NCBI RefSeq assembly: GCF_003416765.1
Contig: NZ_QSNG01000001.1
Span: forward strand, 1,762,742 to 1,826,741
DNA length: 64,000 bases
Origin: Paratractidigestivibacter faecalis
GTDB taxonomy: Bacteria > Actinomycetota > Coriobacteriia > Coriobacteriales > Atopobiaceae
Reading direction: 5' to 3'
The position numbers and the translations under genes are program-made. Of this stretch, positions 12,457-20,447 are shown in pieces; within the stretch, counting starts at the first letter, position 1, and every line of letters begins with the position of its first letter. The notes under the pieces were generated by a model. That model had not been told where the DNA came from. It saw nothing but the letters and a program-made list of their open reading frames with translations, and searched no databases.

Positions 12457-14676
12457 CTACTCCACGCCCTCGCAGGTGGGCTGGATGGCCTTCATGGCCT
12501 CGATGACGCTGGCAAAGAGGTCGTCGAGCTCCATGCCGTTGAGCTCGGCGCCCCTGCGGATGACGTCGCGGTCGCAGCCGGCGGCAAAGCGCTTGTCCTT
12601 GAACTTCTTCTTGAGCGACTTGAGCTCGAAGTCCATGACGGACTTGGACGGGCGCATGAGCACGGCAGCCTGGATGAGGCCGGACAGCTCGTCGCAGGCA
12701 AACAGGACGCACTCCATCTTGCAGCTGGGAGCCGGAAGGTCCGGGTTGTTGTCGGAGTTGTGCGTCTGGATGGCGCGGGCCAGCTCCTTGGTGCCGCCAG
12801 CCTCCTCGATGAGCTCGGCCGCCTTCACGGTGTGCTGGACCTCGTCCTGGAACTTCTCCCAGTCAAGGTCGTGGAGAAGGCCGACCTGGCCCCAGAACTC
12901 CACGTTTGCCGGGTCGTACTTCTGCGCGTAGTAGCGCATGAGGCCCTCGAGGGTCTGGCCGTGGGCAATGTGGAACGGGTCCTCGTTGTACTTCTTCAGC
13001 AGGTCGAAGGCCTGGTCGCGCGTGAGGCCGGTCTCAAGCGCGGGGGCGTCGGCGTGGGCGGCGGCAGCCTCGTTGGAGGCGCCGTGCTCGGCGTCGTCGG
13101 CCAGCGCGTCCACGGAGGCGGCGGCGTTGTCGGTGGTCTCGGGCAGCTGAGAAGCAATGTCGGCGCGGGTGATGACCTCGGGCTTCATCTGCGGGAAGAG
13201 AAGGACGTCGCGGATGGCCGGGGCATCGCAGAACAGCATGATCATGCGGTCGATGCCGTAGCCGATGCCGCCTGCGGGGGGCATGCCGTACTCGAGGGCG
13301 CGCACGTAGTCGTAGTCATAGCCCATGGCCTCGTCGTCGCCGAAGCCCTTGGCCGCGACCTGCTCGGCAAAGCGGCCGGCCTGGTCGACGGGGTCGTTGA
13401 GCTCGGAGAAGGCATTGGCGTACTCGTGGCCGCAGATGACCAGCTCAAAGCGGTCGGTCAGGCGCGGGTCGTCGTCCTTGCGCTTGGAGAGGGGGCTGAC
13501 CTCCTCGGGGTAGTCGCAGACGAAGGTCGGGTTGACCAGCGTGGCCTCGCCCAGCTCGTCGTAGAGCTCGAAGACCAGCTTGCCGGCGCCCCAGTTCTCC
13601 TGCCACTCGATGCCGTGCTTCTCGCAGATCTGGCGCAGGCGCTCGATAGGGGTGTCCATGTCCACGTGCTCGCCGCAGGCGCGGGAGGCAACCTCGGAGA
13701 GGGGCAGGGACTCCCAGGTGCCGGACATGTCGACGGTCTGGCCCTGGTAGGTGATGACCTCGTGGCCCTCCTCGCAGCCGCAGACCTCGCGGGCGATGGT
13801 CTTGAAGAGGCCCTGGGTGAGCTCCTTCATGCCGTCCAGGTCGGAGTAGGCGCAGTAGGCCTCCATGGAGGTGAACTCGGGATTGTGGGTGAGGTCCATG
13901 CCCTCGTTGCGGAACTGGCGGCCGATCTCAAAGACGCGCTCGAGGCCGCCCACGATGCAGCGCTTGAGGGGCAGCTCGGTGGCGATGCGCAGATAGAAGT
14001 CGCGGTCGAGCGCGTTGAAGTGCGTGACAAACGGCTTGGCGTTGGCACCGCCCAGGATGGCGTGCATCATGGGGGTCTCGACCTCCATGTAGCCGTCGGC
14101 CTCCATGTAGCGGCGGATGAGGCTGATGATCTGGCTGCGCTTGCGGAAGGTGTCGCGGACCTCGGGGTTCATGATGAGGTCGACGTAGCGCTGGCGGTAG
14201 CGAACCTCGCGGTCGGTCAAGCCGTGGAACTTCTCGGGCAGCGGGCGCAGGGACTTGGAGAGCAGCTCGACGTGCGTGGGGGCAATGGAGAGCTGGCCAC
14301 GGCGGGTGCGCAGCACGGCACCGGTGGCGCCGATGATGTCGCCCAGGTCAAGCTGGCCCAGGAGCGCCCACTCGTCCTCGGGCAGGTCGTTCACGCGGCA
14401 GAAGAGCTGAATCTGCGCGGTGCAATCCTCGAGCACGATAAAGGCGGCCTTGCCCTGCTTGCGGAAGGCGCGGATGCGGCCGGTGAGGGAGTAGACGTCC
14501 TCAGTGTCGGTGCCGTCGGGGAGGTCTGCGTAGCGCTCCTCGAGGTCGGCGGCGTGGGCCGTCACCGTGGAGTGGATGGGGTAGGGCTGGACGCCCGCGT
14601 CGATAAGTGCCTGGCGGCGGGCGCGGCGCTGCGCCCTCTCGTCGTTGGTGCTGGGGGTTGCGGTCTTCTCGGCCAT
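12457..14676 (-). CDS. lysS: Lysine--tRNA ligase (class II) fused to a C-terminal HD domain
   Basis: A 739-residue protein; ordinary class II LysRS is about 500. Residues 1 to about 505 are a complete enzyme: OB-fold anticodon domain, motif 2 (FEIGRQFRNEGMDLTHNPEF) and motif 3 (GGIGYGIDRMIML near 465-476). An Ala/Asp-rich linker (about 505-560) leads to an HD-type domain (about 563-739). That domain has His569 and His572, the HD pair His602-Asp603 in VGLLHDLDW, His639 in QTHNSD and CDEL further on. The second part resembles stand-alone HDIG-type hydrolases of anaerobes. Its substrate is unknown. There is no stop or frameshift between the halves. ATG at 14676 was chosen over an upstream TTG because of AGGA spacing. 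Confidence 0.92.
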   Translation of the reverse strand: MAEKTATPSTNDERAQRRARRQALIDAGVQPYPIHSTVTAHAADLEERYADLPDGTDTEDVYSLTGRIRAFRKQGKAAFIVLEDCTAQIQLFCRVNDLPEDEWALLGQLDLGDIIGATGAVLRTRRGQLSIAPTHVELLSKSLRPLPEKFHGLTDREVRYRQRYVDLIMNPEVRDTFRKRSQIISLIRRYMEADGYMEVETPMMHAILGGANAKPFVTHFNALDRDFYLRIATELPLKRCIVGGLERVFEIGRQFRNEGMDLTHNPEFTSMEAYCAYSDLDGMKELTQGLFKTIAREVCGCEEGHEVITYQGQTVDMSGTWESLPLSEVASRACGEHVDMDTPIERLRQICEKHGIEWQENWGAGKLVFELYDELGEATLVNPTFVCDYPEEVSPLSKRKDDDPRLTDRFELVICGHEYANAFSELNDPVDQAGRFAEQVAAKGFGDDEAMGYDYDYVRALEYGMPPAGGIGYGIDRMIMLFCDAPAIRDVLLFPQMKPEVITRADIASQLPETTDNAAASVDALADDAEHGASNEAAAAHADAPALETGLTRDQAFDLLKKYNEDPFHIAHGQTLEGLMRYYAQKYDPANVEFWGQVGLLHDLDWEKFQDEVQHTVKAAELIEEAGGTKELARAIQTHNSDNNPDLPAPSCKMECVLFACDELSGLIQAAVLMRPSKSVMDFELKSLKKKFKDKRFAAGCDRDVIRRGAELNGMELDDLFASVIEAMKAIQPTCEGVE

Positions 14677-14700
14677 TTGGTTCCTGCCTTTCAATAGAAA

Positions 14701-15291: not shown

Positions 15292-15609
15292 CTACTCGCC
15301 GAACTTGTGGCCGCACTTGCTGCAGAAGGCAGCACCGGCGGGGTTCTTGGCGCCGCACTCGCCGCAGAACTGGGTGTCCTCGACGTCGGCGTCGGCGTCG
15401 TCCTCGTCGGCGACGACCTCGACGGCGTCATCGTCGGAGGCGGGCTTCTTGGCGGACTTCTCGTCCTCGCCCTCCTCCATGCCCTCGCGGACGTTCTTCA
15501 CGGTCTTGCCGAGGGCGGAGCCGATCTTCGGGAGGTTCTTGGGCCCGAAGATGACCAGGACGACGACAAGGATGATGACGAGCTCGGGAACGCCAAGACC
15601 AAGAATCAT
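15292..15609 (-). CDS. tatA: TatA-family twin-arginine translocase subunit with C-terminal zinc ribbon
   Basis: A 105-residue protein. Residues 5-21 are the short TatA membrane helix, followed by the hinge FGPKNLPKIG (21-30) and an amphipathic helix. An acidic linker (about 58-79) leads to a zinc-ribbon-like tail with two CxxC pairs, Cys82/Cys85 and Cys96/Cys99. Plain TatA ends in a disordered tail, so the ribbon is unusual. GGAGG precedes the ATG. It would form the Tat pore with TatC, which is not in this window, and could serve the Tat substrate at 19300. Confidence 0.88.
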   Translation of the reverse strand: MILGLGVPELVIILVVVLVIFGPKNLPKIGSALGKTVKNVREGMEEGEDEKSAKKPASDDDAVEVVADEDDADADVEDTQFCGECGAKNPAGAAFCSKCGHKFGE

Positions 15610-16564: not shown

Positions 16565-16623
16565 GCGGCCTCGGAGCCAACTAACGACCAGGCCGTGGCC
16601 TCAACTCGGCGGTTCCAATTTAG

Positions 16624-17541
16624 TCACCCATTTTCAACGGTTTTGCCAGATAGAACAAAGCCAAGGACTTCTCCATCCATATTTGCTTCCAGGGTCCATC
16701 CCATGTCCTCGGCCAGCTTTTTTGCCGTCGAGAGGCCAAGTCCCAAGCCGCCATTGAGCCGTTTTGTACCCTCTCCTCGAAAACGTTCAAATAGACCAGA
16801 CTCATCGGGTCTGGCGTCGCCCTTGATTAGGTTCGCTATTTCGAGAGTCCACGTGCTACCGTTTGACTTTTGAATTAGCCTTAGGGACCCATTTCCATGC
16901 CTAAGTGCATTGGAGACAAGATTGTCGATGATGCGCTTTAGCGCGCCCTCATCCGCCTCTACAAGGATTGCCTCATCCGCAAAGCCGATGACGGGCTCCC
17001 AGGCTCTTCTCGCGAGGTCTTCTTCGTAACCCCCCAACACCTCAAGGGTCACCGGCAGCAGCGCGACTGTTTTGAACTCATACTTCCGTTCCGGATCGCT
17101 CGCACGGACATAGAGGGCAAGCTGGTCAATCAGGTTTTCGACATCCCCGATTCTTCTTTCGGCGGCCCTCAGACGCGCCTGAGCCACTTCGGGTTTGCAT
17201 TCCCCCATAGCCAGTTGAAGGTAGCCCTTAGCGCCCGTCAGGGGCGTACGCACGTCATGCGCCAGAGAAGATAAACCGCGCGAATATTCTATTGCCTCAT
17301 TGCGAGCACCCGCAGCGGCAACCCGCGCTTTGTTCATATAGACGGACGCTTCGCGACAAAGCGCCTTCCACCCTTCTGTGGGAATCGACACCTTCAGGTC
17401 CTCTGATTCAAGCCCCTGGTTTTGGCGCATTGCATCAGCAACGCCATTGAGCTGCCGCTCGTAGATGAGGCATGCCAAGAAGAAGCCCAAGAAAAAGGAT
17501 GCACCCACAATCGAATAGAACACTGCCGACGCCCTCTCCAC
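16624..17541 (-). CDS. Sensor histidine kinase of the low-GC island
   Basis: A 305-residue kinase with one N-terminal membrane segment (about 8-27), almost no extracellular part and no recognisable sensor domain. The H box LSSLAHDVRTPLTGAKGY holds His95. The N box IIDNLVSNALRHG is near 204-216 and the G box GGLGLGLSTAKKLAEDMGW near 267-285. It starts with GTG 11 bases after the ATPase gene and ends the response regulator-ATPase-kinase operon. The lack of a sensor domain suggests it senses in or at the membrane or through a partner; the adjacent ATPase is a candidate. Codon use is more AT-rich than in flanking genes. Confidence 0.85.
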   Translation of the reverse strand: MERASAVFYSIVGASFFLGFFLACLIYERQLNGVADAMRQNQGLESEDLKVSIPTEGWKALCREASVYMNKARVAAAGARNEAIEYSRGLSSLAHDVRTPLTGAKGYLQLAMGECKPEVAQARLRAAERRIGDVENLIDQLALYVRASDPERKYEFKTVALLPVTLEVLGGYEEDLARRAWEPVIGFADEAILVEADEGALKRIIDNLVSNALRHGNGSLRLIQKSNGSTWTLEIANLIKGDARPDESGLFERFRGEGTKRLNGGLGLGLSTAKKLAEDMGWTLEANMDGEVLGFVLSGKTVENG

Positions 17542-17552
17542 GACTCGCGTAT

Positions 17553-18440
17553 TTACTGATCAAGCAGCGAGACAGGCGTACGCCTCTGGTGCCTGAGCTC
17601 AATGACGACCGCCCCCAGCTCATGAAGCAGACGACCCAGCTCCGTCTCCCCGCACCCGGTGACCCTTATGAAGTGAAGCCCCTCGTCAGCGTCGAGCTCG
17701 ATTGAGAGCGCCGAGGCCGGTAGCCTTTCGGAGAGAGCGGCGAAATCTTTAGCGAGGTTTGTCGTCCTGACCATGTGTGACTCGCCTCCCGCCTCTGAAA
17801 GCTGGCTCCCCTTCACAATGCCCCTTAAAGAGGGGCCGTCAAACGCCGCATAGGAATCAGCTCGGCATCTCAGCGAATCGGGGGATTTTGTCCCGCACAC
17901 AAGAGTCAGCCCCATCTCTCTCGACACATCCCTGACCACTGACATGAACTCGCCTGCGTCGGCCGAGACGAGACCACGGCATGGTTCGTCAATCAACAGG
18001 ATGCGCGGCTTATCCACGAGGGCAAGCGCAAGGTGGCCCAGACGACGCTCCAGAATGCCACATTCAGACACTCGCTTATCCCGGAAGTCGACCCCGGCAA
18101 CATCCATTGCCTCAGCCGAGGCACTAACTGGATGTGGCACTCGGCGCCTCAGGGCGTAAGCCTGGACATTAGCGCGAAGGGTCGCATGCTCGAAGGCAAA
18201 CGAGTCGCTTCGCATAAACGCCGGCTTGTTGCACACCCTATGCGCCGGCCGACCAAATAGTAGCGCCGCGCCTAAATCAGGCCGAGCCGTGCCAGATACA
18301 AGTGAGAGCACCGCTGAAACGGAACGGCCAGATCCGGTTATCACCCAAAACGCCCCCATGGGAATACTCAGGGACACGGAGTTCAGAACGGTCTCCCCAC
18401 TATCGACTTTCGTAACGCCAGCGAGTTGGATGGCATTCAC
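17553..18440 (-). CDS. ABC-type ATPase homologue with degraded catalytic motifs
   Basis: A 295-residue protein laid out like BcrA/YhaQ-type ABC ATPases, including a C-terminal domain (about 220-295) ending in LGRLLHELGAVVIELRHQ. The key motifs have decayed. Walker A is VITGSGRSV (33-41) with Arg39 for the catalytic Lys. No Q-loop Gln is evident. The signature is SECGI (125-129) rather than LSGGQ, and the H-loop position is Lys185. Walker B RILLIDEP (146-153) is intact. No permease gene is nearby. It overlaps the regulator stop (GTGA, 18437-18440). This suggests a sensing or scaffolding role in the two-component system rather than transport. Confidence 0.75.
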   Translation of the reverse strand: MNAIQLAGVTKVDSGETVLNSVSLSIPMGAFWVITGSGRSVSAVLSLVSGTARPDLGAALLFGRPAHRVCNKPAFMRSDSFAFEHATLRANVQAYALRRRVPHPVSASAEAMDVAGVDFRDKRVSECGILERRLGHLALALVDKPRILLIDEPCRGLVSADAGEFMSVVRDVSREMGLTLVCGTKSPDSLRCRADSYAAFDGPSLRGIVKGSQLSEAGGESHMVRTTNLAKDFAALSERLPASALSIELDADEGLHFIRVTGCGETELGRLLHELGAVVIELRHQRRTPVSLLDQ

Positions 18441-19138
18441 TGAGCCCGTCCCTTCTCAGCCGGTCGTACACGAAAGCCGACTCCCCAAACTGTATTTAGA
18501 TAGGCATCCGTCCCCGTCGGTTTTAATTTTGATCGTATATTTGACACGTGAACATTGATCGTATTGGCATCGTCGCCGTAGGGTTGCCCCCATACCGCCT
18601 CAAATAGCTCAGGGCGCGTAAACACGCGGTTGGGCCTCTCCGCCATCAGGGCTATCAGGTCAAACTCCATTTTCGTTAACGGTATGAACTCTCCATCCAC
18701 GTAAAAGCTCCGCGTTGATTTGTTGAGCGACCAACGACCTAAGGTGAGTTCATCGCAGACGAGGGGAGCCACCCCCGCATGACGCAATTGAACGGCAACG
18801 CGAGCGGCCAGTTCATCCAAGTCGAAAGGCTTTGCCAAATAGTCGTCAGCCCCAAGAGTTAAGAGCTCGACCTTGTCTCCAGGAGTGTCGCGAGCCGACA
18901 TAATTAAAGTTGGCAAGCTGCGTCCGCTTGCGCGAATATAGCGAATCAGTGTCTCCCCGGGACAATCGGGAAGCATAAGATCACAAATCAGAACGTCGGG
19001 CCATTGCTTTGAGAGCCAACCAAGCGCCGAGACCCCATCGTGCATCACGACACACTTCAAACCATCCTTGTCCAATCGTTGGGCAACGACTTCAGCGATG
19101 TCTCGGTCATCCTCGACGATTAGGGCGAGCTTTTCCAT
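18437..19138 (-). CDS. OmpR/PhoB-family response regulator
   Basis: A 233-residue regulator. The receiver domain has the acidic pair Asp10-Asp11, phospho-acceptor Asp53 (LICDLMLP), Ser81 and Lys103 (LAKPFD). The C-terminal winged helix (about 130-230) has the recognition region NTINVHVSNIRSKLK. ATG at 19138 was chosen because homologues begin MEKxALIVEDD; a GTG one codon earlier is possible. It is first in the operon and faces the Tat-exported protein gene across a 161-base AT-rich gap, so that gene is a natural target. Confidence 0.9.
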   Translation of the reverse strand: MEKLALIVEDDRDIAEVVAQRLDKDGLKCVVMHDGVSALGWLSKQWPDVLICDLMLPDCPGETLIRYIRASGRSLPTLIMSARDTPGDKVELLTLGADDYLAKPFDLDELAARVAVQLRHAGVAPLVCDELTLGRWSLNKSTRSFYVDGEFIPLTKMEFDLIALMAERPNRVFTRPELFEAVWGQPYGDDANTINVHVSNIRSKLKPTGTDAYLNTVWGVGFRVRPAEKGRAQ

Positions 19139-19299
19139 CACAACCCCCGCTTCCCTCCGACGCAATCATACGCAAGAAGGGTTGCGCCAGAATAGAAGTT
19201 AGACTCTTATAACTTTCTTAATTCGCAGTTTAGCGCTGCCCAACTTATTTCGCTCACGCTTATCTACGTAGGCAGTACCCAGCAACGGAAAGGATTGAC
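19139..19299. promoter_or_regulatory. AT-rich divergent promoter region of the island
   Basis: The gap between the response regulator and the Tat substrate gene. TATGAT on the minus strand (about 19164-19169) and TATAAC on the plus strand (about 19208-19213) could be -10 boxes, but no convincing -35 was found for either. No clear operator repeat was recognised. Confidence 0.3.
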
Positions 19300-19956
19300 A
19301 TGAGCGAGAACGTCAGCAGAAGAGGCTTTGTAAAGATGGCCTTCCTCACGGCAACGGGAGCGGCAGCATTCGCCGTTGCTCCCGGGCGAATCGCTCTTGC
19401 AGAAGAACCGCAAGAGCTTACCGCCGCAGATGAAGATTCACTCATCATCGAAGACGAAACTGGGACCTTCATCATTACCGTTGAAGAGAGCGGCGAGGTT
19501 CGCACCGTAACTGTCACCAACGCCGAAACCGGCCATTCCGATCAAATCATTTACGACATCAATCAGTCGACCGTATATTCGACTTACACTCAAGAGACGA
19601 CAGCTCTAACCGGAGAGCTGGCCCTGCAGGACGAGAAACGAGTCGGCGGAGCAGCCCGAAGCCGCACGGCCTATTCGACAAGGCAAATTTCGTACGCTCA
19701 AATCAAGAGCGCGGCAGGAACAATCTCCTCTGCAGCGACACTCGCCGCTGCCATTCTCGCGTTTGTCCCCGGAGCTACCATGGCCGCAAGCGTCAGCAGT
19801 CTCGTAAGTGCGGTCGCGGGCGCGGTCAACAACGTAACCAGCCCCTCGACAAGCCACGGCGTTAAGGTGAGGATTGCAACGACCAAGTACTACCGTCGCG
19901 GCAACCACATCCCCTATCGAACTGTGAAGCAGGTAACCGGAGCGTCGCTGTATTAG
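19300..19956 (+). CDS. Tat-exported protein with C-terminal hydrophobic Gly/Ala-rich segment, unknown function
   Basis: A 218-residue protein with a clear twin-arginine signal: SRRGFVK at residues 6-12, a hydrophobic core, and a likely cleavage after Ala34 (RIALA/EE). The mature N-terminal half (about 35-110) is acidic and beta-rich. Residues 139-179 are a long uncharged Ala/Ser/Val segment that looks able to enter membranes, followed by a basic tail (KYYRRGNH). No family was recognised. Signal, amphipathic segment and neighbouring small membrane protein recall bacteriocin-immunity pairs, but that is inference. GGAAAGGA precedes the ATG. Confidence 0.7.
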   Translation: MSENVSRRGFVKMAFLTATGAAAFAVAPGRIALAEEPQELTAADEDSLIIEDETGTFIITVEESGEVRTVTVTNAETGHSDQIIYDINQSTVYSTYTQETTALTGELALQDEKRVGGAARSRTAYSTRQISYAQIKSAAGTISSAATLAAAILAFVPGATMAASVSSLVSAVAGAVNNVTSPSTSHGVKVRIATTKYYRRGNHIPYRTVKQVTGASLY

Positions 19957-19983
19957 AACATGTACCCGAAGGCGTGACCAGAT

Positions 19984-20283
19984 ATGACTCGCGAGAAGCT
20001 GAAGGCTCACATCAAACTCTGCGCCAAAGACCCACTTTGGTGGCTTCTCTTGCTTTGCATTGCCCTCTCGCTTTTCTTCAATATCCGCGAGAGGCTCGGG
20101 CTGGGCACGCCCAGCAAATGGGGAGGCTGGCTTTGCATCGCAACCGGGGCAACCGTTCTTGGTTCATGCGTTAGAAAGATATTCGTCGGCTCTTCTCGAG
20201 AAAGCACCGTCGAGAGTCGCGCAGCTTTGGGCGCCCTCGCCATCCTGACTTGCCTCTTTGGAATTGACGTCCTGCTTATGTAG
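19984..20283 (+). CDS. Small membrane protein, three predicted spans, possible immunity protein
   Basis: A 99-residue protein with hydrophobic segments at about 18-34, 47-66 and 80-98 and a basic N-terminus (MTREKLKAHIKLCAK). No family was recognised. It follows the Tat-exported protein by 27 bases with a GAAGG-like ribosome binding site and is closed by its own terminator, so the two form a bicistron. Its size and topology would fit an immunity or accessory protein. Confidence 0.6.
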   Translation: MTREKLKAHIKLCAKDPLWWLLLLCIALSLFFNIRERLGLGTPSKWGGWLCIATGATVLGSCVRKIFVGSSRESTVESRAALGALAILTCLFGIDVLLM

Positions 20284-20288
20284 TCACC

Positions 20289-20327
20289 GTGCCGCCCGTG
20301 CCATCAGACGTGGGCGGCACTTCTTTG
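20289..20327 (+). terminator. Intrinsic terminator after the Tat-protein bicistron
   Basis: The stem GTGCCGCCC/GGGCGGCAC (20289-20320) is followed by TTCTTTGTT, 6 bases past the stop of the membrane protein. Confidence 0.8.
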
Positions 20328-20354
20328 TTACGCACTTCTCGACTTTCCGAGCGC

Positions 20355-20385
20355 TTGACTTGGAGCTGCTCCAGGGTGCGACAAT
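20355..20385 (+). promoter_or_regulatory. Candidate promoter with palindrome upstream of the DUF362 gene
   Basis: TTGACT (20355-20360) and GACAAT (20380-20385), 19 bases apart, flank a perfect TGGAGC-T-GCTCCA palindrome (20361-20373) that could be an operator in the spacer. The spacing is long, so confidence is low. Confidence 0.35.
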
Positions 20386-20447
20386 CTCGTTGCTGTCGCG
20401 CGGCTGAGGGGCCGGCGGAGCGGACACCACCAACGAGAGGAGAGCGC

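Follow-up and report, generated by a model that had tools for sequence, protein, structure and literature searches.

A predicted two-component-controlled, Tat-exported candidate bacteriocin and its candidate immunity protein in a low-GC block of Paratractidigestivibacter faecalis

A low-GC block in the genome of Paratractidigestivibacter faecalis probably represents a bacteriocin-type locus, in which a two-component system would control a secreted antimicrobial protein together with its immunity protein; both killing and immunity are deduced from the gene layout. The block lies in the window, the 64,000-nucleotide stretch of DNA that was analysed, and holds five intact open reading frames in two divergent units, with a regulator, an ABC ATPase and a kinase on the left and a Tat protein and a 99-aa protein on the right. 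An earlier note on this DNA had delineated the same five frames, all of which were confirmed, and the bacteriocin/immunity-type system it proposed is still the best reading, with envelope stress kept as a rival. Both outcomes that the note had set against itself were found in part. The five genes never occurred together in the other genomes sampled, and the proposed recurrent five-gene unit was rejected in favour of two parts, each found elsewhere, that are joined by a predicted promoter. In addition, the left unit, which had been considered foreign to known kinase/ABC modules, has homologous operons, and these carry a permease.

The block extends from 16565 to 20434 and comprises the whole variable segment. 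The alignment with DNA of a genome of the same genus (G001) runs as far as 16565 and resumes at about 20434, with 82-84% identity on both sides. Between the two aligned flanks, G001 carries different genes, an amino-acid-permease-like gene and an amidohydrolase-like neighbour (named from the look of their sequences, without a family search), and genes similar to this pair adjoin the right-flank gene in G017. Because the flanks align while the interior genes differ, the segment is regarded as a replacement block. Its GC content is 0.561 compared with 0.653 for the window, and third-position GC amounts to 0.56-0.65 in its five genes versus 0.82-0.94 in the flanking genes checked. The AT-rich character noticed earlier was thereby confirmed, and the transfer that had been proposed is supported. 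The ends of the block are sharp against G001.

The left unit is encoded on the minus strand. Its histidine kinase (16624-17541) has one N-terminal membrane span, HisKA and HATPase_c domains in Pfam and intact catalytic boxes, with the H-, N- and G-box residues retained. The response regulator (18437-19138) is of the OmpR/PhoB type and contains Response_reg and Trans_reg_C domains, whereas the ATPase (17553-18440, ABC_tran) is a degenerate pseudo-ATPase that nevertheless matches the ATPases of intact operons over its full length. Catalytic residues are retained in both kinase and regulator, and all frames are open. The single span and missing sensor domain of the kinase, remarked on before, were observed again, but the view that this is unusual was rejected since both features are usual in the kinase family.

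The ATPase search, covering 100 relatives, returned full-length homologues in other Coriobacteriales genera, and most of their regions also hold regulator and kinase homologues, with a multi-span ORF between ATPase and kinase. These sister operons have the order regulator, ATPase, kinase on one strand, to which the window conforms, and their regulators are 44-52% identical to that of the window. Kinase homologues are present in 101 of the 297 Coriobacteriales genomes sampled. A 5-7-span ORF directly adjoins the kinase in all 29 readable kinase loci outside the window, which is the sole exception: no permease lies between its ATPase and kinase, separated by just 11 bases, in agreement with what had been noted. 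Because of these 29 loci, the missing permease is interpreted as a loss and not as the original state. The loss of key ATPase residues was likewise borne out, as Walker A (reading GSGRSVSA, with the Lys gone) and the signature (reading ECGILERR) are lost, the H-loop His is missing as well and Walker B (LLIDEP) is kept. From these motifs, the protein is predicted to be unable to act as a normal ATPase and transport would no longer be a function of the unit; it may be a remnant, or it may act in the cytoplasm as a partner of the kinase. A PADLOC match of the ATPase to mad8 reflected weak general ABC similarity and was discarded. What the window retains is a pared-down ABC-linked two-component system with one operator, and this operator now faces the Tat gene.

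This operator was recognized by comparison. G001, G037/G007 and the window all carry the word TAAGAAAGTYATAA upstream of the regulator; in the direction of the divergent gene, it reads TCTTATAACTTTCTTA in the window, and in L025, L028 and L029 the same kind of word precedes the ATPase gene. Spacings of 28-40 bp between the operator word and a -10-like hexamer were tried, and 34 bp separate the operator core from the hexamer at all operon sites. A second operator core, with a 35-bp spacing to TATACT, was seen at L025:1518 (G088). The search pattern WYTTNNNRCTTTCTTR-N34-YANRMT, drawn from six genomes and run over 297, gave 24 matches in 24 genomes, compared with none in the 297 genomes for the reversed control pattern. 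Twenty-two of these matches adjoin the two-component system, with a kinase homologue on the same contig within ~5 kb (judged by eye from coordinates), and those in G059 and G128 have none of these operon genes nearby. Downstream of the 22 system-linked sites lie an ABC ATPase ORF (18 cases), a peptide of 53-58 aa with an ABC ATPase behind it (three cases, in G007, G037 and G001, representing two lineages) or the Tat gene (one case). Sixteen of the 22 were independent of pattern building, and an ATPase is downstream in every one of them.

The full pattern, that is the cognate operator TCTTNNNRCTTTCTTR followed by 34 bp and a -10, matches only once in the window's genome. On the plus strand, the operator core with its 11-bp direct half-sites occupies 19205-19220, and the putative -10 element CACGCT (19255-19260), exactly 34 bp past the core, is separated from the Tat start codon by 39 bp. 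The 14-base reverse-strand word of the operator occurs once in the 64 kb, allowing up to 3 mismatches. Control of the Tat gene promoter by the two-component system is a well-supported prediction from operator and promoter spacing, as had been suspected when the Tat protein was named as the regulatory output, and the operator probably acts in activation instead of repression. The operator was sought at the other secreted-family loci read and was absent there, so the link between Tat protein and two-component system is limited to one genome.

The direction in which the operator faces also bears on the ATPase. By direct reading, its motifs are intact in 17 of the 18 operons with an operator in front of the ATPase, and in the remaining one (G095) the ATPase (L029) is intact by alignment. 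In contrast, operons with the operator facing another product have a degenerate ATPase signature and H-loop, to which the window adds the loss of Walker A and the permease. Comparison of these three lineages with 18 operons, many of them related, is suggestive of ATPase decay accompanying an operator that faces a secreted product. In the kinase tree, the window groups with both epipeptide-linked lineages (96/94, with a long-branch warning).

The first gene of the right unit (19300-19956, plus strand) encodes the 218-aa candidate bacteriocin, which carries the twin-arginine signal MSENVSRRGFVKM. By sequence, its SRRGFVKM fits the S/TRRxFLK-type motif with a hydrophobic stretch; the TIGR01409 score was 15.1 bits, slightly below the cut-off of 16.7, and TatC is present in the genome (184 bits). 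Pfam assigned zero domains to this protein and to the small membrane protein, no usable name for either was obtained from Pfam, NCBIfam, PHROGs and PADLOC, and comparison of the Tat protein with known bacteriocins gave no significant match. Profile searches detected relatives in eight other loci, all in Coriobacteriales (five intact, one truncated and two fragments), most of which were backed by pairwise BLAST. The family architecture consists of a beta-rich N-terminal part, Ala/Gly-rich hydrophobic helices and a C-terminal stretch in which His-Gly is conserved, two members having Gly-Gly or Ser-Gly instead; the last residue is Tyr in all members. Tat-like signals are carried by the members in the window, G083 and G281, Sec-like ones by those in G011, G226 and G123. 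A phylum-wide draw of 296 genomes gave matches in G000 and G083 alone, scans of genome contigs found solely the SIG40 locus, which is the same as that of G226, and the plasmid records and viral contigs searched contained no relatives; the counts refer to species-representative genomes sampled, with Bacillota outside the sample. These comparisons place the Tat protein in a secreted family that has no name as yet. An AlphaFold model, built from a two-sequence alignment, had a mean pLDDT of 54.6, and a PDB fold search started from it was set aside as meaningless.

The second gene (19984-20283, plus strand) encodes the 99-aa small membrane protein, a candidate immunity protein. The three spans attributed to it earlier are better described as two strong spans plus a weak third one. 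In every family locus read, the gene directly after the secreted gene is small and has 2-5 hydrophobic spans, and in G011, G083, G226, G123, G281 and G182 the pair occurs without the two-component system. The secreted gene of G182 is an N-terminally truncated copy, and in G198 and a second G011 locus it is a C-terminal fragment beside an open membrane gene, of which G198 has two copies. Most of the small membrane proteins cannot be aligned with one another. Retention of immunity genes beside broken bacteriocin genes is a familiar pattern, and it is mainly because the membrane genes persist beside broken secreted genes that the pair is read as bacteriocin and immunity protein. Among the loci read, L049:4578-5219 contains two tandem small membrane protein genes, ~31% identical, beside a broken secreted gene, and a second small membrane-like ORF of 113 aa (L104:5238-5579) lies downstream of the SIG40 family member.

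Among known systems, the geobacillin-26 family of class III bacteriocins (NF035925), which includes Geo26 and alicyclobacillin 24 (PMC13176240), provides a parallel in layout. Like the Tat protein, its members are exported, of similar size and built from a polar N-terminal stretch followed by hydrophobic Ala/Gly helices, and as in the window, a small ORF with membrane spans comes after the bacteriocin gene. The window family differs by extra C-terminal strands ending in Tyr and by its Tat or Sec signals. NF035925 (curated cut-off 40 bits) gave no match to the window Tat protein and five relatives at E up to 1 and none across the window's genome, and hhalign of the mature parts of the two families gave a P of 0.06, which is not significant, with only the N-terminal stretch collinear. 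The resemblance may therefore serve as a lead and not as proof of membership. Alicyclobacillin 24 itself, taken from its plasmid record, scored 124 bits to NF035925. Directly after its gene and on the same strand lies an unannotated ORF, ~50-60 aa long and containing two hydrophobic stretches (L106:25951-26139, minus strand, Alicyclobacillus acidoterrestris plasmid NZ_CP080468), which is possibly the immunity gene of alicyclobacillin 24. The two plasmid relatives of this bacteriocin have similar ORFs behind their genes, of 54 aa and 131 aa.

The left unit recalls the BceRS-BceAB type of antimicrobial sensing and resistance modules (PMC7828314, PMC3023708), in which a kinase without sensor domain, a regulator and ABC genes also stand together and the operator precedes the ABC genes, as in most sister operons. 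Unlike BceB, however, the sister permeases measured have 5-7 spans in ~285-300 aa, leaving no room for an outer loop of 200-250 residues, and the window has neither permease nor ATPase function. No Bce-type permease with a large extracellular loop was found in the window, and since the permease is absent, Bce-type transporter sensing (PMC7828314) cannot operate there. A further parallel is offered by epipeptide loci, exemplified by yydFGHIJ of Bacillus subtilis (PMC7026026), as the operator seen in the window recurs in the sister operons of G001 and G007/G037, where it faces an epipeptide-like cluster. The window product, in contrast, is a 218-aa Tat-exported protein without genes for a radical SAM enzyme, protease or exporter, and no YydG-type radical SAM epimerase is encoded in the block, whereas like genes are found in G001 and G037. 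The G001 cluster scored 182 bits for a YydI-type ATPase (cut-off 240) and 122 for a YydG-type radical SAM epimerase (cut-off 300), and the G037 cluster 68 bits for a YydH/LiaK-type protease (cut-off 225); because all scores are below the curated cut-offs, the clusters are termed epipeptide-like and not confirmed epipeptides. These RiPP clusters of Coriobacteriales are located at L101:5783-9000 (G001), L020:2767-5973 (G037) and L021 (G007), with precursors of 53-58 aa that end in ...SPVYxxxNVNAxxIG(L/W) and YydI-, YydG- and YydH/LiaK-like genes alongside.

In the proposed mechanism, the one-span kinase would phosphorylate the response regulator, which would then bind the 11-bp-repeat operator at 19205-19220 and activate the promoter with its -10 at 19255-19260, giving a transcript that encodes both the Tat protein and the 99-aa protein. 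Following export through Tat, the larger protein may attack neighbouring, probably related, bacteria at the membrane via its Ala/Gly-rich hydrophobic helices, while the 99-aa membrane protein would shield the producer. The two-component system itself would derive from an ABC-linked operon since stripped of its permease. A wider proposal, that Coriobacteriales possess a new family of exported bacteriocins with small membrane immunity proteins and that the ABC part, once a pump, here serves in signalling, is more tentative; the change of role would agree with the loss of ATPase motifs in the secreted-product lineages and the absence of the permease in the window's genome.

Alternatively, the Tat protein and its membrane partner could protect or repair the envelope upon damage sensed by the kinase, without killing. 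Most sister operators precede the operon's own ABC transporter, a detoxification-type layout, and BceS-type kinases, which have no sensor domain, depend on their transporter for the response to antimicrobials (PMC7828314). The permease needed for such sensing is missing here, however, and the gene behind this promoter in G001, of the same genus, encodes an epipeptide-like precursor. Two loci with a broken secreted gene and open membrane genes also fit immunity better than a two-part repair system, and an envelope-stress function is considered unlikely.

Somewhat less likely still is that the three regulatory genes are a remnant in decay, with the Tat/membrane pair expressed without the regulator and alone of importance. 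The permease and the ATPase motifs are gone, secreted/membrane pairs elsewhere lack this two-component system, and with such decay the regulator too could be on its way out. Against this, kinase and regulator keep their catalytic residues, every frame is open and the operator is retained with exact spacing. The least probable of these alternatives holds the Tat protein to be an extracellular signal that is sensed by the kinase in an autoinduction circuit, with or without killing. Signal, kinase and regulator would then be adjacent and share an intergenic operator, which is the layout of peptide-induced bacteriocin loci, but the kinase has no extracellular domain for binding a folded protein, and no kinase of this kind is linked to the other family members.

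On the bacteriocin-type reading, a bacterial group common in the animal and human gut has a family of secreted candidate bacteriocins that is still without a name; the titles and abstracts shown by literature searches contained no bacteriocin from this group. The predicted operator marks a single promoter in each genome, which makes it possible to list what a widespread two-component system controls, and the natural series of intact pump, degenerate pump and no pump allows the role of the ABC part in kinase signalling to be asked. Two further genes of the window were noticed outside the block. A lysyl-tRNA synthetase gene (12457-14694), 90% identical in G001, has a long C-terminal extension resembling an HD-type hydrolase domain (LLHDLDW), and ~1 kb from the block, a TatA-like protein with a zinc-ribbon-like CxxC...CxxC C-terminal tail (15292-15609) is encoded, which is present in G001 too.
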